Shown piece after piece: positions 14,085-33,451 of a DNA stretch of 64,000 bases (the stretch's first letter is position 1; each line of letters starts with the position of its first letter). Location of the stretch: NCBI GenBank assembly GCA_014763545.1, contig JACXVD010000002.1, positions 1 through 64,000 of the forward strand, in the 5' to 3' direction. Both the position numbers and the translations under genes were made by a program. The notes beneath the pieces are model-generated. The model was given only the letters and a program-made list of their open reading frames with translations, had not been told where the DNA came from and made no database searches. Source of the stretch: Sphingomonadales bacterium. Lineage in GTDB: Bacteria; Pseudomonadota; Alphaproteobacteria; Sphingomonadales; Sphingomonadaceae.

Positions 14085-14747
14085 CTAGCGCGTGCGATCC
14101 GCCGGTGCGGTTCCGGATATGCCCGATACCGCCATCTCCGCAAGGGTCCGTGCGGCGCCGCCCCAATCGACCTGCTGCACGTCGATCCCCATGATTCCGG
14201 CCAGCCGGTCGCCCTGCTGCTGGGCATAGAGATAGGTTCCGTGGATCACGTTCATCGCCAGGAACACCGCCTGGTCATCGAGCGCGGGCAGATGCGCGCG
14301 GACAATCCCGATCAGGCGCGAGCGGACCTCGGTCACCAAGGGGCGCACCAGCTGTTTCACCTCGGGCGACGGGTCGGCCAGCGCCTGGCAATAGACTTTG
14401 TGGCTGGCGATGGGGCGTGCATCGACGAAGCGCGGTTCCAGCACCGGGGCGTAGAAACCGGCGATGTAGTTGGCCAGCCGGGCGTCGCCGCGCCGCTGCA
14501 ATGCTGCGAAGGCATCGAGCTGTTCGCGATTGATCGGGGCGAAATGCAGCTCGAACAATTCGGCGAAAAGCTGGCGCTTGTCGGCCCAGTTGCGACTGAA
14601 GGAGGCGAGGCTGGTGCCTGCGCGCGCGGCGACGGCGCGGATCGTGCAGCGGTCGTAGCCGTCTTCGACAAACTCTTCCGCGGCGGCGACCAGGAACCGG
14701 TCGCGGCTGGTGCTCGCCTTGCCTCCGTCAGGCCGCGGCGCTTGCAT
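14085..14747 (-). CDS. TetR/AcrR-family transcriptional regulator
   Basis: A 220-residue TetR-family protein with the helix-turn-helix at about residues 15-62 (RDRFLVAAAEEFVEDGYDR, then TIRAVAARAGTSLASF). The recognition helix reads TSLASFSRNW, where the commoner pattern has a Tyr-x-His near the end, so its operator may be unusual. It overlaps the end of the flavin reductase gene by 20 bases and is probably co-transcribed with the monooxygenase. Its target could be the inverted repeat at 16712-16727 or the region before the aldehyde dehydrogenase; neither is proven. Confidence 0.85.
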   Translation of the reverse strand: MQAPRPDGGKASTSRDRFLVAAAEEFVEDGYDRCTIRAVAARAGTSLASFSRNWADKRQLFAELFELHFAPINREQLDAFAALQRRGDARLANYIAGFYAPVLEPRFVDARPIASHKVYCQALADPSPEVKQLVRPLVTEVRSRLIGIVRAHLPALDDQAVFLAMNVIHGTYLYAQQQGDRLAGIMGIDVQQVDWGGAARTLAEMAVSGISGTAPADRTR

Positions 14748-15237
14748 ATCGTCCGTCGAGATAGATCAGCCCCCGCCGATGTTCGCCGAGGATGGCATCG
14801 TGCACCAGCCCGCGAACGATGATGTGACTGCCGAAATCATCGGCGCAATCGACGTCGCAGACAATACTCGCAAGCGCCCCGCGATAGACCGGCACGCCCA
14901 GCGGGTGATCCGCCCAGTCCGCCGTGCGGAACCGCTCCGCCGGGGGGGTGGAGACGAATTGGTGGCACCATTCCGCGTCACCATCGCCCAGGATGTTGAT
15001 GCTGAACCGCCCGTGCGCCAGCAGCGGCGCGGCGAGCGAGGCGTTGCGGTTGATCGCCAGCAGCATCGAGGGCGGATCGAAGCTGAGCGACATCACCGCC
15101 GTCATCGCGATGCCACAGGGCAGGCCGTCGCCGTCGCGGCTGGCGACGATCGAAACACCGCTGGCCAGCGCCCGCAGCGCCAGGCGGAAAGCCTCGCGCT
15201 GCGGAGGAGGGGCGGTTTCGGGGGCGGGCGTGGTCAT
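14728..15237 (-). CDS. Flavin reductase (HpaC-like) of a two-component monooxygenase
   Basis: A 169-residue flavin reductase of the HpaC/FMN-binding split-barrel family, with GVSIVAS near residue 30, the conserved FDPPSMLLAIN and GRFSINIL, and GLIYLDGRY close to the C-terminus. It would reduce FAD or FMN with NADH and hand the reduced flavin to the oxygenase encoded ten bases upstream. The gene order oxygenase then reductase is the classic hpaBC arrangement. Confidence 0.88.
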   Translation of the reverse strand: MTTPAPETAPPPQREAFRLALRALASGVSIVASRDGDGLPCGIAMTAVMSLSFDPPSMLLAINRNASLAAPLLAHGRFSINILGDGDAEWCHQFVSTPPAERFRTADWADHPLGVPVYRGALASIVCDVDCADDFGSHIIVRGLVHDAILGEHRRGLIYLDGRYASAAA

Positions 15238-15246
15238 ACTTGCGGC

Positions 15247-16695
15247 CTATTCCGCCACGATGCCCGATTTCTGCATGAATTCGCGCACCTGGCCCCATTC
15301 GCCATCGCGCTGCGCGTTCATATGGTCGCCGATCCGTGCGCGGCTCTGGCTGGTGAGGTAGAACATTTCGTACAGTTCCACCCGGCTGCCCAGCGCCGAA
15401 CCGGCGAAATCCCACGCCATGCGCATGATCCGCGCGCGTTCCTCTGCCGGCATGCCGTTCGATCCGGGCAGGTATTTGCGCAGCTTGTCTGCGATTTCCG
15501 GGTTTTCGAACAGTTCGAGCGATGGGGTGCACAGCAGATTGTGCCCGCCGATCACGCGGATGATCTGGTTCACCCGGCTCATCCAGCCCGGCATCACGCA
15601 GCGCAGCACCGAAAGGTCGCGGTGCGGGAAGAACGCGCCCGCGCCCCAATCATGCGCCCGCGCTTCCGCGCCGACGATGGCCGAACGGGTGAGGGTCAGA
15701 TAGGCGTGGATTTCGCCCAGCATCTCCGCCGTTTCGGGATAGGCGAGGCTGTTGGTGACCTTGGCGATGCTGGAGCACAGATCATAGGCGAATTCCAGCT
15801 TCACCATCGCGCGGATCGCGGTCTGCTGCAGCGTGTTGCCCGGCGAAACCCCGGCGTTGAGGTTGTTGTAGACGGTCAGATCGCCATCGCAGAACACGCG
15901 TTCGTAAGGCACTTCGACATCGTCGAAGATCACGAAGGAATCCTGTTCGTCGAAGCGCGAGGAGAAAGGCGCGTCGGCGACGCTGGCATCGACGCCGTAA
16001 TGGTCGCGGCAGATCTGGATCACGCCCTTGGTCTTCACCGGGATCGAGAAGATCAGCGCATATTCTTCCGCGCCGGAGGGAATGGGCGCGGAGGAATAGA
16101 CGTAGAGTTCGTCGGCCAGCGGGCCGAGCGTCGCCAGCACCTTGCCGCCGCGCACCACGATGCCGTTTTCGTTGCGGTCGACGACGCGCAGGGTCAGGTC
16201 GCTGTTCATCCCGGCCAGCGGCGGCGCGCTCTTGTCGATATTGGCGTGGACGATGGTGTGGGTCAGCGCCAGGTCGCCGTCGATCACTTCGCGGTGGAAC
16301 TTCGCCAGCCGCTCATACCCCTCGGGCTTGCCGCGCGCCCAGATGTCGGAACGGGCAGTGTGGCCCGACAGGACGACGTTTACGTAGTCGGGCGTGCGGC
16401 CCAGCATGCCGTTGGAATAGCGCGAGAGGCGTTCCAGTCCGCGATGGCGGATCGCCAGATCTTCGGCGCTCTTGGGCAGCATCAGGCTGACGTTCATCTT
16501 CTCGCCGGGCTTTTCCGGGTCGTCGATCAGGCATTCGTCGGCATATTCGTTCTGCCAATCGAAATAGCCCGCCATGCCGCCGATCGAACCCCTGAGCAGG
16601 GGGTCGTGCGCCACGTCGATCTTCTTGTTGCCGAGCCAGACCTCGCGCCCGTCGTCGAGCGATTCGATATATTGATTTCCGGTTCTTACAGCCAT
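15247..16695 (-). CDS. HpaB-family FADH2-dependent phenol monooxygenase
   Basis: A 482-residue oxygenase of the 4-hydroxyphenylacetate 3-monooxygenase large-subunit family. It has the acyl-CoA-dehydrogenase-like fold, with HRGLERLSRYSNGMLGRTPDY near residue 85 (typical N-terminal domain) and the late conserved VIGGHNLLCTPS and LFENPEIADKLRKYLPG. With FADH2 from the adjacent reductase it should add a hydroxyl group ortho to a phenolic OH. The start at 16695 has GGGAGAACG before it. It is divergent from a VAO-type oxidase gene, and the shared promoter carries one of the 24-bp operators (16755-16778). A phenol made from alkylphenol or stilbene breakdown is the likely substrate; 4-hydroxyphenylacetate itself is possible. 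Confidence 0.9.
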   Translation of the reverse strand: MAVRTGNQYIESLDDGREVWLGNKKIDVAHDPLLRGSIGGMAGYFDWQNEYADECLIDDPEKPGEKMNVSLMLPKSAEDLAIRHRGLERLSRYSNGMLGRTPDYVNVVLSGHTARSDIWARGKPEGYERLAKFHREVIDGDLALTHTIVHANIDKSAPPLAGMNSDLTLRVVDRNENGIVVRGGKVLATLGPLADELYVYSSAPIPSGAEEYALIFSIPVKTKGVIQICRDHYGVDASVADAPFSSRFDEQDSFVIFDDVEVPYERVFCDGDLTVYNNLNAGVSPGNTLQQTAIRAMVKLEFAYDLCSSIAKVTNSLAYPETAEMLGEIHAYLTLTRSAIVGAEARAHDWGAGAFFPHRDLSVLRCVMPGWMSRVNQIIRVIGGHNLLCTPSLELFENPEIADKLRKYLPGSNGMPAEERARIMRMAWDFAGSALGSRVELYEMFYLTSQSRARIGDHMNAQRDGEWGQVREFMQKSGIVAE

Positions 16696-16711
16696 TTTCG
16701 TTCTCCCAGTT

Positions 16712-16727: not shown

Positions 16728-16754
16728 GCGCTCAAACGCCATGACAATAGAAAA

Positions 16755-16778
16755 GAACTAGGGTCCGCTAGACAGAAC
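16755..16778 (+). promoter_or_regulatory. IclR-type operator, copy A
   Basis: A GAAC half-site at 16755 is followed, 20 bases start-to-start, by another GAAC at 16775; between them lies the left palindrome arm, so the inner element reads GTCCGCTAGACAGAAC. The layout (a direct repeat plus a palindrome) matches the other copies at 18470, 20583, 27708, 27857 and 30317. It sits between the divergent monooxygenase and VAO genes and probably serves both. Confidence 0.65.
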
Positions 16779-16849
16779 ATTTGTGCCGTCTTATGCACGG
16801 GTCCTCGGGCACAAGCCCGGCTGCCAGTGCGCAAGGAGAGGATGGGGCG

Positions 16850-18397
16850 ATGGAAGTTGCAGCGAAAGCGGGCCGCAAGGTCGATGCCGCCTGGGCGCGC
16901 GAAGCCTTCGCGGCGATTGTCGGCGATGGCGGGGTGTTGGCGGATGACGGTGCGCTTGCCGAATTTCACGACCCCTTCGTACCCACCGGCACCGCCGGGC
17001 ATCGCCCCAGCCTTGTCGTGCAGCCCGAAACCGTCGAACAGGTGCGCGCCTGCGTCGCTCTCGCCAATCGCAGCGGCATCTGCCTGTGGACGTCCTCGAT
17101 GGGGCGCAATTTCGGCTATGGCGGATCGGCGCCGGTGGTCGACCTGACCGTGGTCCTCAATTTGCGGCGGCTGAACCAGATATTGGAGATCGACGTCGAG
17201 CAGGGTTATGCGCTGGTCGAGCCCGGGGTCACCTTCCACCAGCTTTACGAGGCGCTTCGCGCAATGGACGCGCCGCTGATGATGTCGGTGCCGGACCTTG
17301 GCTGGGGCAGCATGGTGGCGAATGCGCTGCAGCACGGCATCGGCTACAATATCCTCGGCGATCACGCATCGGCCCTGTGCGGGCTGGAAGTCGTGCTGCC
17401 CGATGGCGATCTGCTGCGCACCGGGCAGGGCGCGATCGCAAACAGTCCGCTGTGGAATTCGCACCGGCGCGGCTTCGGCCCGGCGCTCGACGACCTGTTC
17501 AAGCAGTCCAATTTCGGGATTGTCACCAAGGCCGGGATCCGCCTGGCGGCGCGGCCGGAAACGATCCTGTGCGGCACGTTGCGCTGTGAAGGCGATGGCG
17601 ATGTCGGCCCGCTGGTCGATGTAGCGCGTTCCTTGCTGCGCGAAGACGTCATGCAAGGCGTACCGATGATCGTCGGCACGCCAGCTGAGACTGGGTCCGA
17701 GGCCGGGCAGGCGGGTGAGGGCGGCGTGTTCACCTATGCTTCGCTGCGCAAAGTGTTGCGGCCGGGGCGCTGGAACCTGCGCTTCGGGCTCTATGGCCAC
17801 AGCACCATGGTCGAGGCGCGGCTGGCGATCCTGCGCCAGCGGTTTGCCCACGCCCTGCCGCAGGCCGAGCTGGAGATACGCCGCTATCCCGGCAGCGCTG
17901 GCCTGGACGAGGTCGAGCCGCGCGATTACATTACCGCCGGGATTCCCAACCAGCTGTTGCTGGCGCGGTTGACGGGGGTGTTCGGTCCGGATCTGGGCCA
18001 TCAGGATTTTTCGCCCGTCCTGCCGATAACCGGCGACATGGCCGTTCGCTACGATGCCATGGTGCGCGATGCGATGGATCGCCATGGCGTGGTCGGCGCG
18101 GTGGGAATGATGCTGCGCGATGGCAGCATGACCGGTGCCAGCATGATCATGTTCGACCGCCGCGAAGCGGCGCAGCTGGCGGCGGTGCGCGCCGCGGTCG
18201 GCGAGATGGGGAAGCGCGCGGCGGAGTGGGGCTGCGCACCCTATCGCGCCCATGTCGCCATGGTCGATGCAGTCGCCGATGTGCAGGATTTCAACGATCA
18301 TGCGCTGCGGCGGACCTATGGCCGGATCAAGGATGCGCTCGACCCCAACGGTATCCTGTCCCCCGGCAATCACGGCATCTGGCCCGGCAAGGGTTGA
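16850..18397 (+). CDS. VAO/4-cresol-dehydrogenase-like FAD-linked oxidase (first copy)
   Basis: A 515-residue FAD-linked oxidase of the vanillyl-alcohol oxidase / p-cresol methylhydroxylase family. The PP-loop FAD domain includes WTSSMGRNFGYGGSAPVVD (about residues 83-101), and GLEVVLPDGDLLRTG and SNFGIVTKAG are family hallmarks; the C-terminus DPNGILSPGNHGIWP is typical. Such enzymes dehydrogenate or hydroxylate the benzylic carbon of para-alkylphenols and pass electrons to a cytochrome c or to O2. AAGGAGAG lies before the ATG at 16850. A paralogue is at 20644 with a cytochrome directly behind it; this copy has none of its own. It starts just after operator copy A. Confidence 0.88.
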   Translation: MEVAAKAGRKVDAAWAREAFAAIVGDGGVLADDGALAEFHDPFVPTGTAGHRPSLVVQPETVEQVRACVALANRSGICLWTSSMGRNFGYGGSAPVVDLTVVLNLRRLNQILEIDVEQGYALVEPGVTFHQLYEALRAMDAPLMMSVPDLGWGSMVANALQHGIGYNILGDHASALCGLEVVLPDGDLLRTGQGAIANSPLWNSHRRGFGPALDDLFKQSNFGIVTKAGIRLAARPETILCGTLRCEGDGDVGPLVDVARSLLREDVMQGVPMIVGTPAETGSEAGQAGEGGVFTYASLRKVLRPGRWNLRFGLYGHSTMVEARLAILRQRFAHALPQAELEIRRYPGSAGLDEVEPRDYITAGIPNQLLLARLTGVFGPDLGHQDFSPVLPITGDMAVRYDAMVRDAMDRHGVVGAVGMMLRDGSMTGASMIMFDRREAAQLAAVRAAVGEMGKRAAEWGCAPYRAHVAMVDAVADVQDFNDHALRRTYGRIKDALDPNGILSPGNHGIWPGKG

Positions 18398-18469
18398 GGC
18401 AGCGAGCCCGGCTGCGGATAGGTGGTCCGACGGGGAGATTGACTCGCCTCGCGATGCTGATTAAAAAAA

Positions 18470-18493
18470 GAACTGTATTCTACTAGAAAGAAC
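18470..18493 (+). promoter_or_regulatory. IclR-type operator, copy B
   Basis: GAAC at 18470, the inner arm TTCTAC, and AGAAC ending at 18493, with the same 20-base spacing between direct GAAC half-sites as the other copies. It lies 57 bases before the start of the MFS transporter gene and is the only regulatory-looking element in the 153-base gap after the first VAO gene. Confidence 0.7.
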
Positions 18494-18550
18494 GATGAGG
18501 CGACTCCGAGCCAATCAGGCACGGTGTCGACCCGCGGGAGAAGGCTGGGA

Positions 18551-19822
18551 ATGGAAGACGGGCAGCGGCCATCATTGGCGACCATGCGGCGATATGCATG
18601 GATCAACGTGTTCAGCGGATTCCTGGTCTGGGGCATCGCGCTGGCCGGTGTGTCGATGATGATGCCGGTGATGTACGCCAATATCTCCGAGACGATGAAC
18701 TGGACGGTCGGGCAGACGACCACTTTCATGGTCATCAAGTCCTCCGTTTCCGCAGTCGCCGGGCTGATCGCAGGCAGCCTGTTCGTTCGCTTCGGGCTCA
18801 AGCGGGTCTATCTGCCCTCGCTCTGGTCGGTCGGGCTGGCCACGGTCGCGCTGTATTTCGCGCATGATCTGTGGGTCTATTACGCGCTGGCCGCGATTTC
18901 CGGCTTCGGTTCGATCCTTTGCCTGGTCGCGATCCAGCTGACCCTTGCGCGCTGGTTCGATGCCAGCCTGGGCCGGGCGACCGGCATGGCCATGCTCGGC
19001 GGCGCGGCGGCGGGCACCGTGGTCCCGCTGGCGTCGAACTACGGCTTGCAACATTTCGGCTGGCAGGCGACCGCCGGTGCGGCCGGGGTGATCGTGCTGG
19101 CGCTCGCGTTGGTCATTTCGCTGCTGGTGCGCGAAAGCCCGGAACCCTATGGCTACACCGCCGAGGAACTCGATCCCGGCAAGGCCGCCGCGCATGGCGG
19201 GCCGCCCGCCGCACGCGATCCGGGGCCGGAATTCAAGCAGATCCTGCGGACCCGCAGTTTCTACCTGCTGGTGATCGCGACCGCCTTTTCCGGCGTCATC
19301 AGCAACGGGATCAATGAATATATTCCGTTGTTCATCGAACGGCACACCAATCTCGGCAGCTATATGGCGGCGCTGGGCTTTACCATCGTGATCGTCCTGT
19401 CCGGCCTCGGCAAGCTGGTGTTCGGCTGGATGTTCGATCGCTTTTCGACCCGCGGCGTCGCGGCCTGCTGGGCACTGTGCGGCGTGGCGGTGTTGCTCAC
19501 ATTCCCGCTTTCGGGGCTCGTCACCTTCGCGGCCTTCACCATGGTGCGCGGCCTGTCGCATGGCGGGATCGTGGTGCAGGCGCCGATCCTTGGGCGGCAC
19601 ATCTATGGCGTGCGTTCGATCGCCCAGCTGATCGCCATCCTCAACGCTACCTTCCACCTCGGCGCGGCGGCGGGCATCGGCCTGATCGGGCTGGCGGTCG
19701 ACTGGACGGGCGGCTTCACCATCCCCTTCGCAGTGGTTGCCGTGCTGGCCTTCATCACCGCCGGGATCGGGCTGACCTTCAAGCCGCTGCACTGGAGCGG
19801 TTACCGCGCCGCGCGGGGCTGA
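18551..19822 (+). CDS. MFS transporter, probable aromatic acid/alcohol permease
   Basis: A 423-residue major facilitator with about 12 membrane helices. The cytoplasmic loop signature after helix 2 is present as GSLFVRFGLKRVYLPS, and the second half repeats it as VFGWMFDRFSTRG. The ATG at 18551 has GGGAGAAGG 7-15 bases upstream and is preferred to the GTG at 18524. The long hydrophilic middle loop (about residues 195-225) is normal for the family. It is followed by a TauE/SafE-type permease after 6 bases and is led by operator copy B, so uptake or efflux of a substrate or intermediate of the island is likely. Confidence 0.88.
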   Translation: MEDGQRPSLATMRRYAWINVFSGFLVWGIALAGVSMMMPVMYANISETMNWTVGQTTTFMVIKSSVSAVAGLIAGSLFVRFGLKRVYLPSLWSVGLATVALYFAHDLWVYYALAAISGFGSILCLVAIQLTLARWFDASLGRATGMAMLGGAAAGTVVPLASNYGLQHFGWQATAGAAGVIVLALALVISLLVRESPEPYGYTAEELDPGKAAAHGGPPAARDPGPEFKQILRTRSFYLLVIATAFSGVISNGINEYIPLFIERHTNLGSYMAALGFTIVIVLSGLGKLVFGWMFDRFSTRGVAACWALCGVAVLLTFPLSGLVTFAAFTMVRGLSHGGIVVQAPILGRHIYGVRSIAQLIAILNATFHLGAAAGIGLIGLAVDWTGGFTIPFAVVAVLAFITAGIGLTFKPLHWSGYRAARG

Positions 19823-19828
19823 CGCCGG

Positions 19829-20551
19829 GTGCTCGACCTCGCGCTGCTCGCGCTGGCGAGCTTCGTGGCCGCGCTGGCGAGTTCCAGCCTGTCGATCGGC
19901 GGTGGCTACATCCTGTTCGGCGCGGCGACGCTGCTCTATCCGCTGCCCGCCGCCATCGCCTTGCAACCGGTGCTGTCCTACTCCTCGCTCGTGTCGCGCA
20001 GCGTGGCGTTTCGCGATGCGATCGCGTGGGACATCGTACGCCCCTTCTCCGCCGGTTCGCTCGCCGGGGTCGCGCTCGGGCTGGTGGTCTATCGCATGAT
20101 GCCCGAACGCGGGCTGGCGCTGGCAGTGGGTACGGCGATGCTGGTGCTGGCCTGGGTGCGCCCGGTCATCGCTGCCCATCACACGCGCAAGGCCTATGTC
20201 GCGGTCGGATCGCTCCATGCTCTAAGCGGGACCGTGCTGGGGCTCGGCTCGGTGCTCCAGCCGGTGCTGCTCAACGCGGGGATCGACCGGCGCACACTGG
20301 TCGGCACCTTCGCCACCTGCCTGCTTGCGCTCGAGGGGATCCGAACCCTGGGCTATGCCGCCTCGGGCTTTTCCTATCGCCCTTATGCCCTGCCGATCGC
20401 GGTGGCAGTGGCGACAGGCGTCGCCGGGACCTGGGCGGGCAGGGCGCTGATCGGGCGGCTTCCCGAAAGCTGGTTCCGCTGGATTTTGCGGATCATGATT
20501 TCGCTGCTGGCCTTGCGTCTTGTGGCGCTGGGGCTGGGGTTGCACAATTGA
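19829..20551 (+). CDS. TauE/SafE-family membrane permease
   Basis: A 240-residue membrane protein with seven or eight hydrophobic segments, beginning with ALASFVAALASSSLSIGGG, the conserved first repeat of the TauE/SafE (DUF81) family. Members move sulphonates, sulphite or small organic anions. It starts with GTG at 19829, 6 bases after the MFS stop, so it is part of the same operon. The link to aromatic breakdown is only positional; organic acid exchange is possible. Confidence 0.82.
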   Translation: MLDLALLALASFVAALASSSLSIGGGYILFGAATLLYPLPAAIALQPVLSYSSLVSRSVAFRDAIAWDIVRPFSAGSLAGVALGLVVYRMMPERGLALAVGTAMLVLAWVRPVIAAHHTRKAYVAVGSLHALSGTVLGLGSVLQPVLLNAGIDRRTLVGTFATCLLALEGIRTLGYAASGFSYRPYALPIAVAVATGVAGTWAGRALIGRLPESWFRWILRIMISLLALRLVALGLGLHN

Positions 20552-20582
20552 CAGCCGCGCTGTGCCGGTATAGCTAATTACA

Positions 20583-20606
20583 GAATAGTATTCTGTTAAA
20601 CAGAAC
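20583..20606 (+). promoter_or_regulatory. IclR-type operator, copy C
   Basis: The inner element TTCTGTTAAACAGAA is a perfect 15-bp palindrome, with GAAT at 20583 as the third half-site 20 bases before the final GAAC. This is one of the two best copies. It lies 37 bases before the second VAO-type gene (20644). Confidence 0.75.
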
Positions 20607-20643
20607 AAACGGTCCTGCGCGGCCGCTGGGAGATCCGACGAGC

Positions 20644-22188: not shown

Positions 22189-22583
22189 AGTCCCTGTTTC
22201 CGCTCGCTGCCGTGCTGGCGACGCTTTCTGCCTGTTCGGGCCAGGGCGCGGCGGACAAACCCGCCAAGCCGGCAGACAAGGGCATGCCGCAGATCGAAGT
22301 CGTGACCTTCGGCCTCGCTTCCAGCGATCCGGGCGAGCGGCTTTACGGCAGCAAATGTGCCTATTGCCATGTCGGCAAGAACACCGGTGCGATCATGCTG
22401 AAGAAGCGCCTCGCCCCCTCGCAACCGGCGGAACTGCACCTGCGGACCGATCTCGATGCCGATTATGTGACGACCGTGGTGCGTCACGGGCTGGTCAACA
22501 TGCCTCCGCTGACGCGCGCCGAATTGAGCGACGAACAACTCGCGACCATCGCCACCTGGCTGGCGCGCAAGGACCGCAAGTGA
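22185..22583 (+). CDS. Cytochrome c subunit of the VAO-type flavocytochrome
   Basis: A 132-residue cytochrome c with a lipobox-like signal sequence (LATLSAC at residues 12-18) and haem motif CAYCH. VNMPPLTRAEL supplies a likely Met sixth ligand and the end WLARKDRK is typical of short class I cytochromes. It corresponds to the cytochrome partner of 4-cresol dehydrogenase or eugenol hydroxylase (PchC/EhyA type). Start and stop overlap both neighbours (ATGA at 22185, GTGA at 22580). Confidence 0.88.
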   Translation: MKSLFPLAAVLATLSACSGQGAADKPAKPADKGMPQIEVVTFGLASSDPGERLYGSKCAYCHVGKNTGAIMLKKRLAPSQPAELHLRTDLDADYVTTVVRHGLVNMPPLTRAELSDEQLATIATWLARKDRK

Positions 22584-23041: not shown

Positions 23042-23055
23042 AGGATCGGGAAAAC

Positions 23056-27693: not shown

Positions 27694-27707
27694 CGGTCTC
27701 TCCATAT

Positions 27708-27731
27708 GTTCTGATTAGCAGAACTATATTC
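27708..27731 (-). promoter_or_regulatory. IclR-type operator, copy D (stilbene dioxygenase promoter)
   Basis: Read on the minus strand, GAAT, then the arm TTCTGC, then CAGAAC, with 20 bases between the direct half-sites. It lies 14 bases before the chosen start of the dioxygenase, so a bound protein would cover the start of the transcript or the ribosome-site DNA. Copy E lies 126 bases away for the divergent gene. Confidence 0.72.
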
Positions 27732-27856
27732 TATTATGAAAAATTGGGACTGTCCAGTGTGCTTCTGAAGCACCGGTATCTCGCGGATTTCTGCCAAAAT
27801 CGAGTGATGGTTGTGCGACTCGATTGACAGTGGGGAGGAGATGTGCTTTCAGAAAG

Positions 27857-27880
27857 GAACGATATTCTGTTGAACAGAAC
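27857..27880 (+). promoter_or_regulatory. IclR-type operator, copy E (TonB receptor promoter)
   Basis: The inner TTCTGTTGAACAGAA is a perfect 15-bp palindrome and GAAC at 27857 is the third half-site. It lies 44 bases before the TonB receptor start. This copy and copy C are the closest to the consensus. Confidence 0.75.
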
Positions 27881-27924
27881 AAACGAGCCGGATCCGGCCG
27901 ACAACGCTGGGAGGAGACCCTGAG

Positions 27925-30237
27925 ATGAAACATATGCGCACCCCCCTCTTGCTTGGCGCAGGCCTGGCCGCCTTCACGGCGCAGCCTGCCTTTGCCGAAG
28001 ATGCCGCCGAAGAACATGCCAGCGGCGACAAAAATGGCGAGATCATCGTTACCGCACAGTTCCGCGAAGCGACTGCACAGGACACGGCGATTTCGCTCGA
28101 AGTCATTTCCGCCGATTCGCTGGCCGATGCCGGCGTGACCCAGGCGACCGACCTCAACCGCATCACCCCCGGTGTGCAGCTGAGCCAGGGCGGCACCGCG
28201 ATCCAGATCTTCATCCGCGGTGCAGGCGATTTCTCGACCACTTCCTACAACGATGCGGCGGTTGCGCAGAGCTATGACGGCATTTTTGCCGCGCGCACCC
28301 AGTGGATCGCCGGCACGTTCTACGATCTCGAGCGGGTCGAAATCCTCAAGGGGCCGCAGGGCACGCTCTATGGCCGCAATGCGACCGGCGGCGTGATGAA
28401 CATCCTGCCCGTCCAGCCGAAGCTGGGCGAGAATTCGGGCTATCTCACCGGCCAGATCCAGAATTACGACGGCTATCTCGCGGAAGGCGCCCTCAACCTC
28501 GCGCTGGGCGACAAGGCCGCGCTGCGGGTATCCTACCAGGGTTCGTGGCGTGATGGTTACATCAGCGACGGGACCGACGACGACAAGCACCAGTCGGTCC
28601 GTTTCCAGCTCAAGGCCGAGCCGACCCCCGACCTGACCCTGCGCTTCGGGGCCAACTACCAGCACATCGGCGGGCGCGGCCACGGCCAGGTGGTTTACGA
28701 ACCCACCGCGCCGACCGGCCCGGGCCTGCCCGGCACGCCGATCATCCCGTCCGATCGCTGGACCTCGATCAACGATTCGCTCAATTCGCTGATCGGTCAG
28801 CTCGCTGCCCCTCCGGGGACCTATCCGATCGACACCAGCCTGATCCGCCAGGATATCGATGCCTGGGGTATCAACGCCCATGTCGACTGGGATTTGGGTC
28901 CGGCAACGCTGACGATCATCCCTGCCTATCAGCGCGTGGTGAACGATTCGCAGTCCTTCCCGACGCTGAGCTTCAACACCAACGATCCCTATTCGGGGCG
29001 GCCGAGCACGTCCGATGCCCAGACGCTGGAAGTGCGGCTCGCCAATTCCGACGGCCCGCTGGTGTGGGTGCTGGGCGGCTATTACTTCAACGAGGACCAG
29101 GACAGCCTCAACGAAGTGTCGCTTGGCTTTGTCAGCGACACCGCCTTCGTCGCCGATCTCAATACCCGCGCCTATGCCGCGTTCGGCGAGGCGACCTATT
29201 CGGTGACCGACAGTTTCCGCCTCACTGCGGGCCTGCGCTATACCGACGAGACCAAGACGGTCGACGCGCATCGCTATGCCAAGCTGGGCAGCCTTGCCTG
29301 CCTCGGCGGCGGCACGGGTCCGGGCAACAGCTGCGAGCTGCTGACCACCGCGGGCACCAATGTGCAGGGCACCTATTCGGCCAACCGCCTGAACTTCAAG
29401 CTCGGCGTCGAATATGACGTGACGCCGGACAATTTGCTCTACGCAACCGTGGCCACCGGCTTCAAATCGGGTGGGCAGGCGAATGCCGACCTCGACCCCT
29501 ACAAGCCCGAGGACGTCACCGCCTTCACCATCGGTTCGAAGAACGAATTCGGCAACGGCCTGGTCGTGCTGAACCTCGAAGGCTTCTATTACGAATATCG
29601 CGACCGGCAGGAAAACTTTGCCGCGCTCGACCGGGGCGGGGCGCAGGTCTCGTCGCTGTTCAACGCGGGCAAGGCGGTGGCCAAGGGTGCCAGCATCGAA
29701 TTCACCCTGCGTCCCAGCGACAACGACACTTTCTATGTCGGCGGCGAATATGTCGAAAGCGAATACAAGGATTTCACCTACTACAACTATCGCACGGCCA
29801 GTCCCGATGCGCGCACCAGCTGCGCGGTCAGCGCGGTGCCGAACGGCAATGCCCAGATCGGCTATTGGGAAATCAATTGCGACGGCTTCCAGCTGCCGCG
29901 TACCCCTAAATGGTCGGGCTCGGTGCGCTACAACCACAGCTTCCCGCTCGCCAACGGTGGTTCGGTCGATTTCTCGCCGAACATGACCTTCGCCAGCTCG
30001 CGCTGGTTGTCGGCCGAATTCGTCGAGAACGCCCGGGCCAAGGGTTACGCGGTGTTCAACGCATCGCTGACCTACCGCGCGCCGGACGATCGCTATTCGG
30101 TGCAGGCCTTCGTGCGCAATATCGGTGACACGGCGGTCTATACGGGCACCCAGCAGTACCCGTTCATCGCCAACTACAACGGCCTCGATATCGCTCCGCC
30201 GCGGACTTACGGCGTGCGGGTCCGATATAATTTCTGA
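27925..30237 (+). CDS. TonB-dependent outer-membrane receptor of the aromatic island
   Basis: A 770-residue TonB-dependent receptor with a signal peptide (about residues 1-25, ending AFAED), TonB-box-like GEIIVTAQFRE, a plug domain with RVEILKGPQGTLYGRN, and a long beta-barrel that ends in an aromatic-terminated strand (GVRVRYNF). GGAGGAG precedes the ATG at 27925. It is under the same type of operator as the catabolic genes and divergent from the stilbene dioxygenase, so it should import the aromatic growth substrate, perhaps one too large for porins. Confidence 0.93.
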   Translation: MKHMRTPLLLGAGLAAFTAQPAFAEDAAEEHASGDKNGEIIVTAQFREATAQDTAISLEVISADSLADAGVTQATDLNRITPGVQLSQGGTAIQIFIRGAGDFSTTSYNDAAVAQSYDGIFAARTQWIAGTFYDLERVEILKGPQGTLYGRNATGGVMNILPVQPKLGENSGYLTGQIQNYDGYLAEGALNLALGDKAALRVSYQGSWRDGYISDGTDDDKHQSVRFQLKAEPTPDLTLRFGANYQHIGGRGHGQVVYEPTAPTGPGLPGTPIIPSDRWTSINDSLNSLIGQLAAPPGTYPIDTSLIRQDIDAWGINAHVDWDLGPATLTIIPAYQRVVNDSQSFPTLSFNTNDPYSGRPSTSDAQTLEVRLANSDGPLVWVLGGYYFNEDQDSLNEVSLGFVSDTAFVADLNTRAYAAFGEATYSVTDSFRLTAGLRYTDETKTVDAHRYAKLGSLACLGGGTGPGNSCELLTTAGTNVQGTYSANRLNFKLGVEYDVTPDNLLYATVATGFKSGGQANADLDPYKPEDVTAFTIGSKNEFGNGLVVLNLEGFYYEYRDRQENFAALDRGGAQVSSLFNAGKAVAKGASIEFTLRPSDNDTFYVGGEYVESEYKDFTYYNYRTASPDARTSCAVSAVPNGNAQIGYWEINCDGFQLPRTPKWSGSVRYNHSFPLANGGSVDFSPNMTFASSRWLSAEFVENARAKGYAVFNASLTYRAPDDRYSVQAFVRNIGDTAVYTGTQQYPFIANYNGLDIAPPRTYGVRVRYNF

Positions 30238-30247
30238 CGCCCGAACA

Positions 30248-30284: not shown

Positions 30285-30316
30285 GCCCTGGTCGGCATAA
30301 AACCCGGCCATAAACA

Positions 30317-30340
30317 GAACGATAGTCTGATTGAAAGAAC
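30317..30340 (+). promoter_or_regulatory. IclR-type operator, copy F (ring-cleavage operon)
   Basis: GAAC at 30317, arm GTCTGA, and AGAAC ending at 30340 with the standard 20-base half-site spacing. The last base is only 9 bases before the ATG at 30350, so the element takes up the place of the ribosome-binding site and no good Shine-Dalgarno is seen there. Confidence 0.7.
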
Positions 30341-30349
30341 GGTGTTGCT

Positions 30350-31252
30350 ATGCGACTGGTACGGTTCGACGGAGGCAGGATAGGCGTTGCGACGCAGGGC
30401 GGGGTGGTCGACATTTCGCGTCTCGTCGGGGCTCCCGATGCGGAATGGCCGGAGGTTTCCAGCCTGCGGTTCATTGCCCGCTTCGACGGGCTGCGCCCGG
30501 CGATCGAACAGGCGGTCGCACAGGGCGAAGTGCTGCCGCTCGATGCGATCCGGCTTGATCCGCCGGTCGGCTTTGCCAGCAAGGTGATCGCCTATCCGGT
30601 CAATTATCACGCCCATGGCAAGGAAATGGGCGCAACCTATCGCGCCAAGAACCAGGGTTTCTTCCTCAAGCCGCCATCGTCGATCAGCGGCCCGGCCGAT
30701 CCGATCGTCCTGCCCGACGTGCCGGGGCGCGAGGTACATCATGAGGCCGAACTCGGCATCATCATCGGCAAGACCTGCCGCTCGGTATCGCGCGAAAACT
30801 GGCGCGAGGCGGTGTTCGGCTACACCTGCCTGATGGACATGGTGGTGCGCGGCCGCGAAGAGCGCGTGTTCCGCAAGGCCTACGACACATTCTGCCCGAT
30901 CGGTCCGTGGATCGTCACCGCCGACGAGATCGCCGCGCCCGATGCGCTGTCGATGAAACTGTGGGTCAACGGCGAACTGCGCCAGGCCGCCAATACGCGC
31001 GACCTGGTGCTGGACATCCCCGGCATGATCGAAACCGCTTCGGCGGTGATGACGCTGTATCCCGGCGATGTGATCGCGACCGGCACGCCCGAAGGGGTCG
31101 GGCCGGTGGTCGATGGCGACAGCGTGCGCATCGCCATCGACCAGATCGGCGAAATGACGCTCGACGTCCGGCAGGGTAGCGAAGGCGGCACCGAAGTGTT
31201 CGAAGCGCCTTACGAACCGCCGATCGTGAAGCAGGAGCTGACCGACCGATGA
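30350..31252 (+). CDS. FAH-family hydrolase (fumarylpyruvate/acylpyruvate hydrolase-like)
   Basis: A 300-residue member of the fumarylacetoacetate hydrolase family. The short N-terminal part (residues 1-85) leads to the catalytic domain starting at VIAYPVNYHAHGKEMG. The metal-binding acids are seen in HHEAELGIIIGK (E-x-E) and YTCLMDMV (Asp), and the family end motif appears as GDVIATGTPEGVGPV. Next to a gentisate-dioxygenase-like gene it should hydrolyse the ring-cleavage product (maleylpyruvate or fumarylpyruvate, or an alkyl form) to pyruvate and a dicarboxylate. It overlaps the dioxygenase gene by ATGA at 31249. Its start is fixed by the family's N-terminus rather than by a ribosome site. 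Confidence 0.9.
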   Translation: MRLVRFDGGRIGVATQGGVVDISRLVGAPDAEWPEVSSLRFIARFDGLRPAIEQAVAQGEVLPLDAIRLDPPVGFASKVIAYPVNYHAHGKEMGATYRAKNQGFFLKPPSSISGPADPIVLPDVPGREVHHEAELGIIIGKTCRSVSRENWREAVFGYTCLMDMVVRGREERVFRKAYDTFCPIGPWIVTADEIAAPDALSMKLWVNGELRQAANTRDLVLDIPGMIETASAVMTLYPGDVIATGTPEGVGPVVDGDSVRIAIDQIGEMTLDVRQGSEGGTEVFEAPYEPPIVKQELTDR

Positions 31253-32205
31253 GCGCGCTCTCGCCGCAACTCGAGCAGCTCTATGCCTCCTTCTCCAGTC
31301 TCAATATGGAGGGGGGCTGGCACCGCCGTTTTCCGGCGCTGTGGCCGCAGCCGCGCGAGAATTTCCTGCCGCATACCTGGCACTATGCCGATGTGCGTCC
31401 GATCCTCGACCGCGCGGGCGACCTGGTCGACACCGAATTCGCCGAACGCCGCAATCTGACGATGTTCAACCCGGTGGAAGGCAACATCTACTCCACCGTG
31501 CGCACGATCGTGGCGGCTTACCAGATGGTCAAGCCGGGCGAGGTCGCGCGTGCCCATCGCCACACGCCCAATGCGCTGCGCATGATCCTCGAAGGCCGCG
31601 GCACCTACACGGTGGTCGATGGCAAGGAAGTGGAGATGCGCCCCGGCGACGTCCTGCTGACGCCGAACTGGTGCTGGCACGCGCACGAAAACAAGGGCGC
31701 CGAGAACTGTTACTGGATGGACTTCCTCGATGTACCGCTGGTGCATCTGCTGGAACCGATGTTCTACGAGCCGCACCCCGACGGGCTCGAACAACAGGTC
31801 GAGCGGCTGGACGAAGCCCCGATCGCCTTCCGCTTCGAAGAGACATGCGCCGCCTTGGCAGACGCGCAGCCTAGCGCGACCCACGGGATGCTGAAAGCGA
31901 CCACACTGGGGCCGGCACAGCTCGCCACGCTGGCGCTCGATGTGATCGAGATCGAACCCGGCCAGGCAGGCTTGCCGATCCGCGAAACCGCGAATGCGAT
32001 TTATGCGGTGATGCGCGGCAGCGGCGAACTGACGATTGGTGGCACAGCCAGCGAATGGCGCTTCGGCGACACGGTGGCCGTGCCCGCCTGGCGCGAACAC
32101 AGCCTGCGCGCAGGGCCGGACGGCGCCATGCTGCTCAAGGTTTCCGACCGCACACTGATGCAGAAACTCGGCTGGTACCGGCACCAGGCGGCTGACGGAC
32201 AATGA
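31249..32205 (+). CDS. Gentisate 1,2-dioxygenase-like cupin ring-cleavage dioxygenase
   Basis: A 318-residue bicupin. The first cupin has the metal site in RAHRHTPNALRMILEG and ...NWCWHAHE, with GDVLLTP between, the pattern of gentisate 1,2-dioxygenases (three His on Fe(II)). The second cupin (about residues 225-310) is less conserved, as usual. It is rather shorter than the common 340-370 residues. The reaction would open gentisate, or a substituted gentisate, between the carboxyl-bearing carbon and its hydroxylated neighbour. The FAH hydrolase upstream and FAD monooxygenase downstream fit this pathway. Confidence 0.88.
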   Translation: MSALSPQLEQLYASFSSLNMEGGWHRRFPALWPQPRENFLPHTWHYADVRPILDRAGDLVDTEFAERRNLTMFNPVEGNIYSTVRTIVAAYQMVKPGEVARAHRHTPNALRMILEGRGTYTVVDGKEVEMRPGDVLLTPNWCWHAHENKGAENCYWMDFLDVPLVHLLEPMFYEPHPDGLEQQVERLDEAPIAFRFEETCAALADAQPSATHGMLKATTLGPAQLATLALDVIEIEPGQAGLPIRETANAIYAVMRGSGELTIGGTASEWRFGDTVAVPAWREHSLRAGPDGAMLLKVSDRTLMQKLGWYRHQAADGQ

Positions 32206-32254
32206 ACTGGGATGCGCGCGCCGCAAGCGTGTCGGCGCGCATTTGGAGGTAGTT

Positions 32255-33451
32255 ATGGCAGACAAGCCCCGCATTACGATTGCAGGTGGTGGCATTGGCG
32301 GAATGGCAGCGGCGCTCTCGCTGCTGCGCAGGGGCTATCCGGTCCGCGTCTATGAACAGGCGCCCGAACTGGGCGAGGTCGGGGCCGGGGTGCAGATCAG
32401 CCCCAACGGCTCGCGCGCGCTGGATTCGCTGGGCGTGTTCGAAAGCCTCAAGGCGCAATCCTGCGCGCCCAAGCGCAAGGAATTCCGCCTGTGGAACACC
32501 GGGCGGTCATGGCCGATGTTCGACCTCGGCCCGATGGCGATCGAGAAATACGGCTATCCCTATCTGACCGTCTATCGTCCCGATTTGCTCGCCACGCTTC
32601 ACGCGGCGGTGTGCGATATCGATCCCGATGCGGTGGTGCTGGGCAGCGAGGTGGTCGGCGCGGAGGCGGATGAACACAGCGCGACCCTGCTGCTGGCAGA
32701 CGGTTCGCGGATCGAAAGCGACATCCTGATCGGTGCCGACGGGGTCAAGTCGACCGTGCGCAAATCGTTGTTCGGCGACGATCACACCGAATTTACCGGA
32801 ATGATCGCCTGGCGTGCGGTGATCCCGATGGAGCGCCTGCCCGAACGGTTCCACGAGATGGTCGGCTGGACGTGGATCGGGCCGGGTGGCCACCTCGTCA
32901 ACTACCCGCTGCGCGGCGGCAAGCTGATGAACATGATCGGCACGATCGAACGCAACGACTGGCAGGTCGAATCCTGGTATGCCGAAGGCTCGATCGAGGA
33001 ATGCCTCAACGATTTCGCCGGCTGGCACGAAGATGTGCAGACGCTGATCCGCGCGGCGCCCAAAGTACTCAAATGGGCCTTCATGGAACGCGCCCCGCGC
33101 CAGGTCTGGAGCCTGGGCCGCGCCACACTGCTGGGCGATGCCTGCCATGCGACCCTGCCGTTCCTTGCACAGGGCGCGGTGATGTCGATCGAGGACGGGG
33201 TCGTGCTCGGCCGCTGCCTCGACGAATTCGCCGATCCGGTGGAGGCGCTGCGCCGCTACGAACAGGCACGCGTCGAACGCACCAGCAAGATGGTGCGCGG
33301 GGCGAAGGAGAATACCGCCCGCTTCCACGAAGGCGCGCTGAAGACCGAAGAAGGCGCCATCGCCTATATGGAAAGCGAATGGAGCCGCGATCCGATCAAG
33401 GAACGCTACGACTGGCTCTATCGCTACGACGTGGAGACGGCCGAGATATGA
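32255..33451 (+). CDS. FAD-dependent aromatic hydroxylase (3-hydroxybenzoate 6-hydroxylase/salicylate hydroxylase-like)
   Basis: A 398-residue class A flavin monooxygenase. The Rossmann motif GGGIGGMAAALSLLRRG is at the N-terminus, the DG motif is SDILIGADGVKSTVRK, and the GD motif is ATLLGDACHATLPFLAQG. GGAGGT lies before the ATG at 32255. The whole sequence resembles salicylate 1-hydroxylases and 3-hydroxybenzoate 6-hydroxylases. Beside a gentisate-type dioxygenase the second activity is favoured: it would make gentisate, or an alkyl gentisate, from a 3-hydroxybenzoate. Confidence 0.88.
   Translation: MADKPRITIAGGGIGGMAAALSLLRRGYPVRVYEQAPELGEVGAGVQISPNGSRALDSLGVFESLKAQSCAPKRKEFRLWNTGRSWPMFDLGPMAIEKYGYPYLTVYRPDLLATLHAAVCDIDPDAVVLGSEVVGAEADEHSATLLLADGSRIESDILIGADGVKSTVRKSLFGDDHTEFTGMIAWRAVIPMERLPERFHEMVGWTWIGPGGHLVNYPLRGGKLMNMIGTIERNDWQVESWYAEGSIEECLNDFAGWHEDVQTLIRAAPKVLKWAFMERAPRQVWSLGRATLLGDACHATLPFLAQGAVMSIEDGVVLGRCLDEFADPVEALRRYEQARVERTSKMVRGAKENTARFHEGALKTEEGAIAYMESEWSRDPIKERYDWLYRYDVETAEI

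Follow-up and report, generated by a model that had tools for sequence, protein, structure and literature searches.

A conserved sphingomonad regulon for the probable conversion of two-ring plant phenols into stilbenes and degradation of both halves

A cluster of about 20 genes that probably serves to turn two-ring plant phenols into stilbenes, to halve them and to digest both pieces was found in a bacterium related to Sphingomonas. It occupies 12.6-39.0 kb of the analysed stretch of 64,000 nucleotides (the window), from an aldehyde dehydrogenase (ALDH2) and an HpaB-family monooxygenase through a second aconitase, and its boundaries are wider than the 14728-33451 of an earlier sequence-only reading. 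The genes are real, belong to one regulon and are shared with other sphingomonads, including the known lignin degrader Sphingobium SYK-6, whose version of the cluster contains lsdC (SLG_11300). Gene content, operator, conservation and the exchange of an arm in a variant locus are all observed. The best explanation as a whole, to which we assign a probability of roughly 0.55, is an IclR regulon in which a flavoprotein (VAO2) would yield a stilbene, an LsdC-type enzyme would split it and a gentisate-type lower arm would follow. The substrate is probably a phenolic diaryl compound of the beta-5 type, other than the liverwort-type compound proposed earlier, and its second ring probably enters a direct-hydrolysis, CoA-dependent gentisate-type route. 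Pfam and NCBIfam bear out the gene content reported before, although many cluster genes had been left without a role, namely HpaB with its flavin reductase, the GMC oxidoreductase, the MFS, TauE and TonB transport genes, the CaiB CoA-transferase, the HMG-CoA-lyase-like protein, the second aconitase and a small exported-looking protein (22580-23041).

The reactions, the regulator's identity and the substrate we infer as follows. The diaryl phenol would be imported through TonB2 and the MFS transporter, whereupon VAO2, with its cytochrome c as electron acceptor, would oxidise a 4-hydroxybenzyl unit at its benzylic carbon, giving a quinone methide. This would become a stilbene on losing a proton or else formaldehyde, the latter as in the proposal for PinVW. 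The LsdC-type dioxygenase would split the stilbene into two aryl aldehydes for oxidation by ALDH2 and ALDH3; a side-chain alcohol may be a further target of oxidation, by the GMC enzyme and ALDH3. Precursors of beta-5 type (2,4'-dihydroxystilbene) compounds would be the likeliest substrates, for example, isodihydrodehydrodiconiferyl alcohol (IDDDC). IDDDC is a ring-opened phenylcoumaran with an ArCH2-CH(CH2OH)-Ar' unit as in imperanene. In the variant locus L023 the second cleavage product would pass through FerD/LigW2 relatives, and in clusters of the window type a replacement arm of HpaB with its reductase, an FAD hydroxylase and a gentisate-type dioxygenase would cleave the ring. FAAH would then directly hydrolyse the product, the aconitase paralogue would hydrate the (substituted) maleate, and CaiB and HMGL would split the hydrated compound as a CoA ester.

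That the cluster forms one co-regulated catabolic unit is borne out by a 24-bp operator preceding seven gene starts between 16.7 and 35.4 kb; the shared operator claimed earlier was thus recovered as seven 33-bp sites in the window. These lie between HpaB and VAO1 (16750..16782, + strand, 42.5 bits) and before MFS (18465..18497, +, 47.0), VAO2 (20578..20610, +, 50.1), LSD (27704..27736, -, 44.8), TonB2 (27852..27884, +, 47.6) and FAAH (30312..30344, +, 42.8), the last of which ties the gentisate-type arm to the same unit. The seventh and weakest (35415..35447, +, 32.8), between IclR and HMGL, has a spacing that is off by one base and is not matched by the strict pattern. The range of 32.8-50.1 bits holds by construction, because the matrix was built from the seven window sites themselves; its sole other window match of at least 12 bits coincides in part with the LSD site, and no match arose in ten sequences from a first-order Markov model. 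Without recourse to the matrix, a search for TTCTGTTNAACAGAAC allowing up to three mismatches matched eight times (0.22 expected; maximum of 3 in 100 shuffles), corresponding to four near-palindromic places read on both strands each. A degenerate pattern fitted to the other six sites matched only those six across the 3.07 Mb genome and so none outside the cluster, its reversed control matched nowhere in that genome, and the same pattern occurs twice each in SYK-6 and two further genomes (G233, G069), always inside their clusters. The window matrix found 2-8 sites in each of the 20 orthologous cluster loci, as compared to two matches in 1.12 Mb of control sequence from 60 LSD loci.

The operator's likely owner is the IclR-family regulator at 34692..35570 (-; Pfam HTH_IclR; 19/20 loci), which reaches 91 bits with the PcaR/PcaU/PobR model TIGR02431, under its cut-off of 285, and probably controls the regulon to which it belongs. 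A TetR-family regulator (14085..14747, -; Pfam TetR_N and TetR_C_30) is present in 15/20 loci.

The core of the cluster is a flavocytochrome near a true lignostilbene dioxygenase, as had been supposed. The dioxygenase (26221..27705, -), an LsdC/LSD3 orthologue, scores 855 bits with NF053778 (cut-off 800) and is 83% identical to SLG_11300; its F63, Y105 and K138 align with F59, Y101 and K134 of LSD4. LsdC of SYK-6 cleaves DCA-S (the beta-5 stilbene) and lignostilbene and had, among the LSD lysates tested in the cited work, the highest activity on DCA-S relative to lignostilbene (PMC8191317), whereas a pocket residue reported there as Ala is Gly in the window protein. VAO2 (20644..22188, +; 18/20 loci), a dehydrogenase-like VAO/PCMH flavoprotein, overlaps by four bases the gene of its cytochrome c partner (22185..22583, +; Pfam Cytochrome_CBB3 8.6e-13), which has a lipoprotein-like signal and one CxxCH and occurs with that motif in 18/20 loci, the remaining two lying on contigs that end after MFS. 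Among solved structures, VAO2 is closest to 8s7x, the VAD of Marinicaulis flavus, with which the flavin-linking His aligns; at the flavin N5 site VAO2 has Gly/Asn where wild-type VAD, as described, has Asp/Pro (PMC7617285). The VAD chain used in the alignment with VAO2, presumably a variant from that paper, also has Asn at this site. PGN[SG]WGS is kept in 21/21 rows (one genome counted twice). The plural "flavocytochromes" of the sequence-only reading does not hold, since VAO1 (16781..18397, +, start likely near 16850; 15/20 loci; best PDB match 9gov, 320 bits) lacks a cytochrome partner and carries an oxidase-type flavin-site pair (PDLGW), with PDLGWGS in 18/18 rows (one genome counted twice). 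Downstream of the cytochrome lies orfX (22580..23041, +), a small protein of no recognised family with a twin-arginine-like N-terminus, for which Pfam gave no match and the AlphaFold model, at a mean pLDDT of 79, could not be paired confidently with any fold; tblastn found it in 13/23 records, two being second records of one genome, i. e., 11/21.

The pairing has a precedent in the pinoresinol pathway of Novosphingobium rhizosphaerae LY, published in 2025, in which a VAO/PCMH flavoprotein with a cytochrome gene (PinVW) makes an alkene that the LSD homologue PinU splits (PMC12607616); the cytochrome gene there is predicted to be translationally coupled (PMC12607616, PMC12997858). The earlier statement that no described pathway of this kind was known is therefore outdated in part, although the gentisate arm, like HpaB, CaiB, HMGL and an aconitase, is absent from the Pin pathway as described. 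A lignan (beta-beta) pathway, with VAO2 and its cytochrome as PinWV and LSD as PinU, would account for this pairing of enzymes and for a linkage of this kind on the chromosome. It is nonetheless very unlikely, as a review table lists no PinW in SYK-6, which does have VAO2, and places PinU at SLG_27970, another of the eight LSDs of SYK-6, rather than at SLG_11300 (PMC12997858). Simple 4-alkylphenols such as 4-propylguaiacol or eugenol are an unlikely substrate class as well: VAO/PCMH enzymes are known for them (PMC7617285), and LSDs from TMY1009 and P. putida IE27 are reported to yield vanillin by cleaving eugenol (PMC8191317). LSD would act on the propenylphenol formed, as an isoeugenol-monooxygenase type enzyme giving vanillin-type aldehydes for the rest to funnel. 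However, LSD scores above the equivalog cut-off for lignostilbene dioxygenases, DCA-S and lignostilbene are both substrates of its orthologue (PMC8191317), and the FerD/LigW2 relatives of L023 would have no place in monomer degradation.

Within the preferred beta-5 reading, the aryl aldehydes would meet two of the three aldehyde dehydrogenases invoked before; ALDH1 (7298) has no operator nearby and lies among the genes of an amine-dehydrogenase-like cluster. ALDH2 (12623..14227, -; Pfam Aldedh 2.6e-145, residues 71-523) probably starts inside its ORF, which overlaps TetR. It occurs in 5/20 loci at 69-81% and in G233 at 87%, and is variable, as it was not seen in 38 kb of SYK-6. The StyD-like ALDH3 (24682..26163, +; Pfam Aldedh; NF045735 518 bits, under its cut-off of 850) occurs in 4/20 loci, most stretches stopping before it, and in SYK-6 and G233. 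In SYK-6 its orthologue is, by gene count, SLG_11410, an enzyme that can oxidise syringaldehyde in vitro (PMC5353671), in keeping with the aryl aldehydes expected earlier. The GMC oxidoreductase (22807..24663, +, start likely near 23040; Pfam GMC_oxred_N/C) is present in SYK-6 and in 9/20 loci, many stretches stopping before it, and is 37% identical to a SYK-6 GMC protein (HpvZ/SLG_12830 by gene count). The HpaC-like flavin reductase (14728..15237, -; Pfam Flavin_Reduct 5.1e-30) and the HpaB-family phenol monooxygenase (15247..16695, -; Pfam HpaB_N/HpaB; TIGR02309 265 bits, under its cut-off of 480) both occur in 15/20 loci, HpaB at 85-89% identity in twelve, at 66-69% in L016, L024 and L026 and, in addition, at 91% in G233 and G069. 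Transport is represented by MFS (18524..19822, +; MFS_1 2e-33; 20/20), a TauE/SafE-like permease (19829..20551, +; TauE 3e-19; 11/20) and the receptor TonB2 (27925..30237, +; Pfam barrel and plug; 19/20).

The lower arm comprises, in 18/20 loci each, the candidate acylpyruvate hydrolase FAAH (30350..31252, +; FAA_hydrolase 1.6e-55), the gentisate-1,2-dioxygenase-like bicupin GDO (31249..32205, +; PDB GDO matches; TIGR02272 199 bits, cut-off 442; HxH and WHxH stretches in 21/21 rows), the FAD hydroxylase (32243..33451, +) and a CaiB-type CoA-transferase (33451..34668, +; CoA_transf_3 3.2e-119; best NCBIfam succinate-glutarate CoA-transferase). As all four stay under the curated cut-offs of their NCBIfam models, their substrates may differ. 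HMGL (35483..36445, +; 17/20) passes NF004283 (249 bits, cut-off 246) and shows, in 19/19 rows, an intact GLGGCPF and PREG in place of the family motif PRDG. The second aconitase (36235..38985, +; Pfam Aconitase), whose start overlaps HMGL and which adjoins it in 3/3 extended relatives, exceeds the cut-offs of two AcnA subfamily models, NF009520 (909 over 905) and NF006757 (901 over 686), stays under the equivalog TIGR01341 (815 vs. 945) and may simply be an aconitase; the host has another full-length copy, 46% identical, with GSSR in this single comparison copy where 4/4 cluster aconitases have GSAR. The direct-hydrolysis gentisate pathway of Pseudomonas alcaligenes combines GDO, an FAA-family maleylpyruvate hydrolase and an aconitase-family maleate hydratase. 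The window likewise has GDO, FAAH and an aconitase-family protein without a recognised isomerase; its AcnA-like protein is a single chain vs. two subunits there, and CaiB and HMGL would point to a 2-substituted malate. CaiB-like genes also lie near HMGL relatives outside the cluster (L186, L190, L191; 30-33%), so that the two may have no part in ring cleavage.

The earlier reading led a lunularin-like 3,4'-dihydroxybibenzyl into this arm, with a VAO2-to-LSD step identical to that of the preferred reading: cleavage to 4-hydroxy- and 3-hydroxybenzaldehyde would deliver 3-hydroxybenzoate to a 6-hydroxylase and thus gentisate. Known 3-hydroxybenzoate operons group such a hydroxylase with GDO and FAAH, which the FAD hydroxylase adjoins, and its best NCBIfam match is 3-hydroxybenzoate 6-monooxygenase (296 bits, under its cut-off of 459). 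In the PDB, however, its relatives include decarboxylating hydroxylases, with tropone 2-monooxygenase (267 bits) and vanillate 1-hydroxylase (213) above 4bjy (190), which we take to be 3-hydroxybenzoate 6-hydroxylase. Far from using every step, the bibenzyl would leave HpaB and its reductase, GMC, CaiB, HMGL and the second aconitase without a job; LsdC favours an ortho-hydroxy stilbene, as far as reported (PMC8191317), and the FerD/LigW2 relatives of L023 misfit a meta-hydroxy ring. The lunularin hypothesis is weakened, and we consider it distinctly unlikely.

The beta-5 assignment draws on L023, a cluster without HpaB and the gentisate arm in a genome without a GDO match. An operator of the cluster type (19.4 bits) begins there 43 bases before an ALDH ORF. 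This ALDH and the amidohydrolase encoded next to it match a SYK-6 pair, FerD/LigW2 as identified by gene count, at 75.5% and 65.5% identity. In the beta-5 pathway, DCA is converted into DCA-S, which LsdD splits into vanillin and 5-formylferulate, followed by FerD and then LigW/LigW2 (PMC11323797, PMC12997858, PMC8191317). The cluster shares with that pathway the LSD clade (LSD1-4 of SYK-6), GMC oxidoreductases and, in L023, the FerD/LigW2 relatives. The pathway as published makes its stilbene by PcfL or PhcF/PhcG, not by a flavocytochrome, and has FerD/LigW2 where the window has the gentisate-type arm; as the position required for gentisate bears a side chain in the beta-5 product, the arm would need an ipso step. 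The argument depends on L023 as the single variant locus, which is a contig of a MAG, and on an 83% orthologue with a differing pocket residue. Since L023 has the stilbene unit without the gentisate unit, the two are separable, as would be expected if one regulator governed two pathways, a stilbene-splitting one and an independent hydroxybenzoate/gentisate one for an unrelated substrate. The operator shared by both units speaks against this, as does the joint presence of HpaB and GDO in 14 of the 15 loci, besides L023, that show both places (L018 has no HpaB match), and we regard it as highly improbable.

The host genome carries further LSDs (C23, C8), the former with a LigW2-like gene nearby, and may thus already be equipped for the usual beta-5 route. 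Across 298 genomes of the family, GDO (E <= 1e-50) occurs in four, the same four with LSD at >=83% and VAO2 at >=68%. VAO2-like genes (E <= 1e-120) were found in at least 40 and LSD-like genes (E <= 1e-100) in at least 43, with both in at least 39, and among the matches listed 24 of 60 VAO copies lie within 30 kb of an LSD, as compared to about 3.5 expected under uniform placement with kinship ignored.

Pfam and NCBIfam scans bore out the gene assignments of a sequence-only reading of this DNA and added further parts; the catabolic cluster that it had described is confirmed, albeit with corrections, and extends further than reported. It begins with the aldehyde dehydrogenase ALDH2, a TetR regulator, a flavin reductase and HpaB on the minus strand (12623–16695), followed on the plus strand (16781–26163) by the VAO-type flavoprotein VAO1, an MFS transporter, TauE, a second VAO-type flavoprotein (VAO2), cytochrome c, orfX, a GMC oxidoreductase and ALDH3. 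The lignostilbene dioxygenase gene (LSD; 26221–27705, minus strand) precedes a plus-strand stretch (27925–34668) encoding a TonB-dependent receptor (TonB2), an FAA-hydrolase-family protein (FAAH), a gentisate-1,2-dioxygenase-like bicupin (GDO), an FAD aromatic hydroxylase and a CaiB-type CoA-transferase, while an IclR regulator (34692–35570, minus strand) and an HMG-CoA-lyase-like protein (HMGL) with a second aconitase (35483–38985, plus strand) complete the cluster. The small protein orfX (22580–23041, plus strand), located between cytochrome c and the GMC oxidoreductase, has a twin-arginine-like start, no Pfam family and divergent relatives in other cluster copies; for its predicted alpha/beta fold, Foldseek gave 0 matches at E ≤ 0.001 and the best VIA Z was 6.1, with no confident match.

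With a probability of roughly one in five, and thus tentatively, we propose that the cluster encodes the first pathway in which a flavocytochrome makes a stilbene from a plant-derived aromatic dimer, by oxidative deformylation of a ring-opened phenylcoumaran such as isodihydrodehydrodiconiferyl alcohol (IDDDC). LsdC would then split this stilbene, and the mineralization of one ring, instead of proceeding via vanillate/protocatechuate, would pass through a substituted gentisate, employ a dedicated aconitase paralogue and end in a CaiB/HMG-CoA-lyase-type split that releases acetyl-CoA plus a 2-oxo acid. If this lower arm is correct, lignin-like dimers would gain an exit that is of the gentisate type and depends on CoA. 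No term beginning with "gentis" appears in the main text, as accessible, of a 2026 review of dimer pathways (PMC12997858), and no account of this cluster was found in the literature searched, most subscription papers being outside its reach.

The dioxygenase exceeds the curated equivalog model NF053778 (855 bits, cut-off 800), and its F63, Y105, and K138 align with the catalytic F59, Y101, and K134 of LSD4 (PMC8191317). FNGDGM and G[AS]YRNP are both present in 23/23 aligned LSD rows (one genome counted twice), and the position of LSD4 Ser283 is Ala in 16/23 and Gly in 7/23, the window LSD having Gly and LSD3 of Sphingobium sp. SYK-6 having Ala (PMC8191317). The SYK-6 cluster locus (L015) contains the orthologue SLG_11300, that is, LSD3 or LsdC; it is for LsdC that stilbene cleavage has been assayed, the window LSD being known by sequence, and the LSD3 lysate had the highest activity on the β-5 stilbene DCA-S relative to lignostilbene (PMC8191317). 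SYK-6 has eight lignostilbene dioxygenases, the roles of which were called undetermined in 2021 (PMC8191317), and the SLG_113 locus tag found in the accessible parts of PMC12997858 and PMC8191317 is SLG_11300. The SYK-6 orthologue of ALDH3 lies eleven gene places downstream of LSD (orfX and cytochrome counted) and by this gene count matches SLG_11410, which has been grouped with StyD, acts on syringaldehyde in vitro and was not transcribed on syringaldehyde or vanillin (PMC5353671).

VAO2 shows the arrangement by which PCMH-type flavocytochromes are recognized, a flavoprotein with a co-encoded cytochrome c: the two genes overlap by 4 bases (22185–22188) and the cytochrome carries CxxCH. The nearest solved structure is 8s7x, the dehydrogenase VAD of Marinicaulis flavus (PMC7617285), with the flavin-linking His of which a VAO2 His aligns; in PCMH-type flavocytochromes, the FAD is linked to a tyrosine. 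The flavin-N5 positions of VAO2 are Gly/Asn, with PGN[SG]WGS in 21/21 rows (one genome counted twice); the Leu/acid pair assigned to oxidases (PMC7617285) is absent, and the canonical dehydrogenase pair (Pro or Ile plus a small residue) is half matched. VAO1, on account of its Asp/Leu pair (PDLGWGS in 18/18 rows, one genome counted twice) and its lack of a cytochrome, is probably an oxidase. Among the matches listed for 298 family genomes, VAO2-like genes occur in 40, LSD-like genes in 43 and both in 39. Moreover, 24 of the 60 VAO copies listed have an LSD no more than 30 kb away, as compared to about 3.5 expected at random, a count based on the best candidates (up to 5) per genome and with statistics that ignore kinship. 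This co-occurrence and proximity supports a general VAO-to-LSD link, a published case of which is PinVW/PinU (PMC12607616). With this parallel, the core mechanism of the sequence-only reading, flavocytochrome followed by stilbene dioxygenase, is plausible, although we infer all of its reactions; its specific substrate, a lunularin-like 3,4'-dihydroxybibenzyl that would use every step on the way through 3-hydroxybenzoate to gentisate, is without support and was rejected as stated.

An LSD scan of 84,980 species (one genome per species) yielded 143 confirmed relatives, and among the best 80 of these the cluster is present at 20 loci, with LSD identities of 78–93 %. Counting matches that cover at least half of the query, the MFS transporter occurs in 20/20 cluster loci, IclR and TonB2 in 19 each, VAO2 with the cytochrome in 18 (the contigs of L017 and L018 end after MFS), GDO, the FAD hydroxylase, FAAH and CaiB in 18 each, and HMGL in 17, the gaps in the lower arm falling on a contig fragment (L021), a variant cluster (L023) and a locus that starts at IclR (L010). 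HpaB is found in 15 (L007–L009 end at VAO1; L018 and L023 have no match), VAO1 likewise in 15 (no match in L010, L016, L023, L024, and L026) and ALDH2 in 5. None of the other 60 LSD loci among the best 80 of 143 relatives (60–72 %) matched GDO, the FAD hydroxylase, FAAH, CaiB, HMGL, HpaB, IclR or the cytochrome, and five of them had a VAO2-like match at 40–46 %. GDO (E ≤ 1e-50) is present in 4/298 family genomes, the same four that have an LSD at ≥83 % and VAO2 at ≥68 %, and the second aconitase adjoins HMGL in all three extended stretches (SYK-6, G233, and G069).

Comparison of intergenic stretches revealed a repeated element, a putative operator with the consensus GAACnATATTCTGTTnAACAGAAC, seven copies of which precede HpaB/VAO1, MFS, VAO2, LSD, TonB2, FAAH, and IclR/HMGL. 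A position weight matrix (PWM) built from these copies detected no other independent site across the window, nor did any of ten Markov sequences contain one, and the simple palindrome gave 8 matches in the window (four places on both strands) versus 0.22 expected. A degenerate pattern fitted to six of the seven sites matched exactly those six in the whole 3.07 Mb genome, with 0 matches when read backwards, and gave 2 matches in each of three other genomes, all inside the orthologous cluster. At ≥15 bits, every one of the 20 cluster loci contains 2–8 matches to the window PWM, preceding the same genes as judged by eye. The controls, 60 LSD loci that lack the cluster (L027–L086; 1,117,462 bases), gave 2 matches (15.6 and 18.3 bits), and a site that scores under about 18 bits in a single locus carries no more weight than these. 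The overlapping-palindrome layout together with the IclR gene, nearest to the PcaR/PcaU/PobR subfamily yet under its cut-off, suggests IclR as the putative binder; a TetR gene is also in the cluster. The analysis assigns LsdC (SLG_11300) to a conserved regulon that also comprises a flavocytochrome, a set for side-chain oxidation and what looks like a complete arm for ring cleavage, and the role of LsdC thus becomes directly testable.

The variant L023, on a Sphingobium MAG contig, bears on the substrate. It keeps IclR, TonB2, LSD, MFS, VAO2, cytochrome, GMC, and ALDH3, shows no match to HpaB, the FAD hydroxylase, GDO, FAAH, CaiB or HMGL, and is flanked on both sides by cell-wall/division genes (Mur, FtsQ). 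Its whole genome gave no GDO match, the same query giving matches in other genomes. Beside IclR, and behind a cluster-type operator, it encodes an aldehyde dehydrogenase and an amidohydrolase_2 protein; this operator (19.4 bits) begins 43 bases before the aldehyde dehydrogenase ORF, and the IclR-side site reaches 15.1 bits only. Two adjacent genes of SYK-6 encode proteins with 75.5 % and 65.5 % identity to these two; counting genes from LSD4 (SLG_12860) makes them SLG_12800/12810, named FerD/LigW2 in PMC12997858. FerD and LigW convert 5-formylferulate, a β-5 LSD product, into ferulate (PMC11323797). Together with the DCA-S preference of LsdC, these relatives point to ortho-hydroxy (β-5 type) stilbenes as the putative cluster substrate, the variant being one locus in one MAG. 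The window cluster has no pair of FerD with LigW/LigW2, which is found in the variant, and neither PcfL nor PhcF/PhcG was recognized among the Pfam results of its proteins. Elsewhere in the genome that contains the window (contig C23, near 11791–18884), a LigW2-like decarboxylase (66 % to the SYK-6 copy) is encoded some 5 kb away from another LSD (58 %), and an ordinary β-5 route may therefore exist there.

Conversion of a β-5 product into a gentisate-like ring could proceed by ipso-hydroxylation through HpaB or the FAD enzyme, the relatives of the latter including decarboxylating hydroxylases. A direct-hydrolysis route via a substituted maleate to a substituted malyl-CoA would then fit GDO, FAAH, hydratase, CoA-transferase, and lyase; no maleylpyruvate isomerase was recognized among the cluster proteins scanned. 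GDO (199 bits; TIGR02272 cut-off 442), the FAD hydroxylase (296 bits; 459 for the 3-hydroxybenzoate 6-hydroxylase equivalog NF006021), FAAH, and CaiB all score under curated cut-offs and are, for this reason, relatives with unproven substrates. GDO is a bicupin (Cupin_2 in 2 stretches) with HRH and WHxH in 21/21 rows (one genome counted twice), and in gentisate 1,2-dioxygenase bicupins the HxH...H residues form the metal site. HMGL scores above the cut-off of NF004283, a subfamily model of HMG-CoA lyase (249 bits versus 246), and has PREG in 19/19 rows; the family motif is PRDG with a metal-binding Asp, hence we call it HMG-CoA-lyase-like only. Another full-length aconitase on contig C8 of the same genome is 46 % identical to the cluster copy and has GSSR versus GSAR in 4/4 cluster copies. 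The window aconitase passes two AcnA subfamily models (NF009520, 909/905; NF006757, 901/686), which counts against a special role, and lies under the aconitase_1 equivalog TIGR01341 (815 versus 945).

Relatives of the lower-arm genes in other contexts were also considered. GDO relatives occur elsewhere in the class in 59/385 genomes (E ≤ 1e-35, best 42 %), and six such loci examined contained no matching module, with a FAAH-like match (35 %) in L172 and an enoyl-CoA-hydratase-like match (26 %) in L171. HMGL relatives occur in 26/289 genomes (E ≤ 1e-60); seven loci examined (54–63 %) had no relatives of GDO, the FAD hydroxylase or FAAH, and only a partial aconitase-family match (28 %, L185). 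CaiB-like matches (30–33 %) were present in L186, L190, and L191, directly beside HMGL in L191; the HMGL relative in L187 adjoins ATP-synthase genes, and L186 has the same gene-size pattern. These contexts thus offer no explanation of the lower arm.

At 896–12606, a separate cluster without the operator encodes methylamine-dehydrogenase-heavy-chain-like, thioredoxin-like, and cytochrome c-like proteins along with a TonB receptor, an aldehyde dehydrogenase, an acyl-CoA ligase, two enoyl-CoA hydratase-like proteins, and a TetR regulator, and looks like a set for amine oxidation followed by CoA-dependent breakdown. On the other side, a partly GC-richer stretch (41545–52190) carries [NiFe] hydrogenase subunits, the maturation proteins HypA, HypB/CobW-type, HypD, and HypF, and a 4Fe-4S/CCG protein. 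The stretch at 53137–64000 encodes another aldehyde dehydrogenase (53137–54864), a solute-binding protein, a beta-propeller protein, and a PQQ-type beta-propeller dehydrogenase-like protein (59614–61359).
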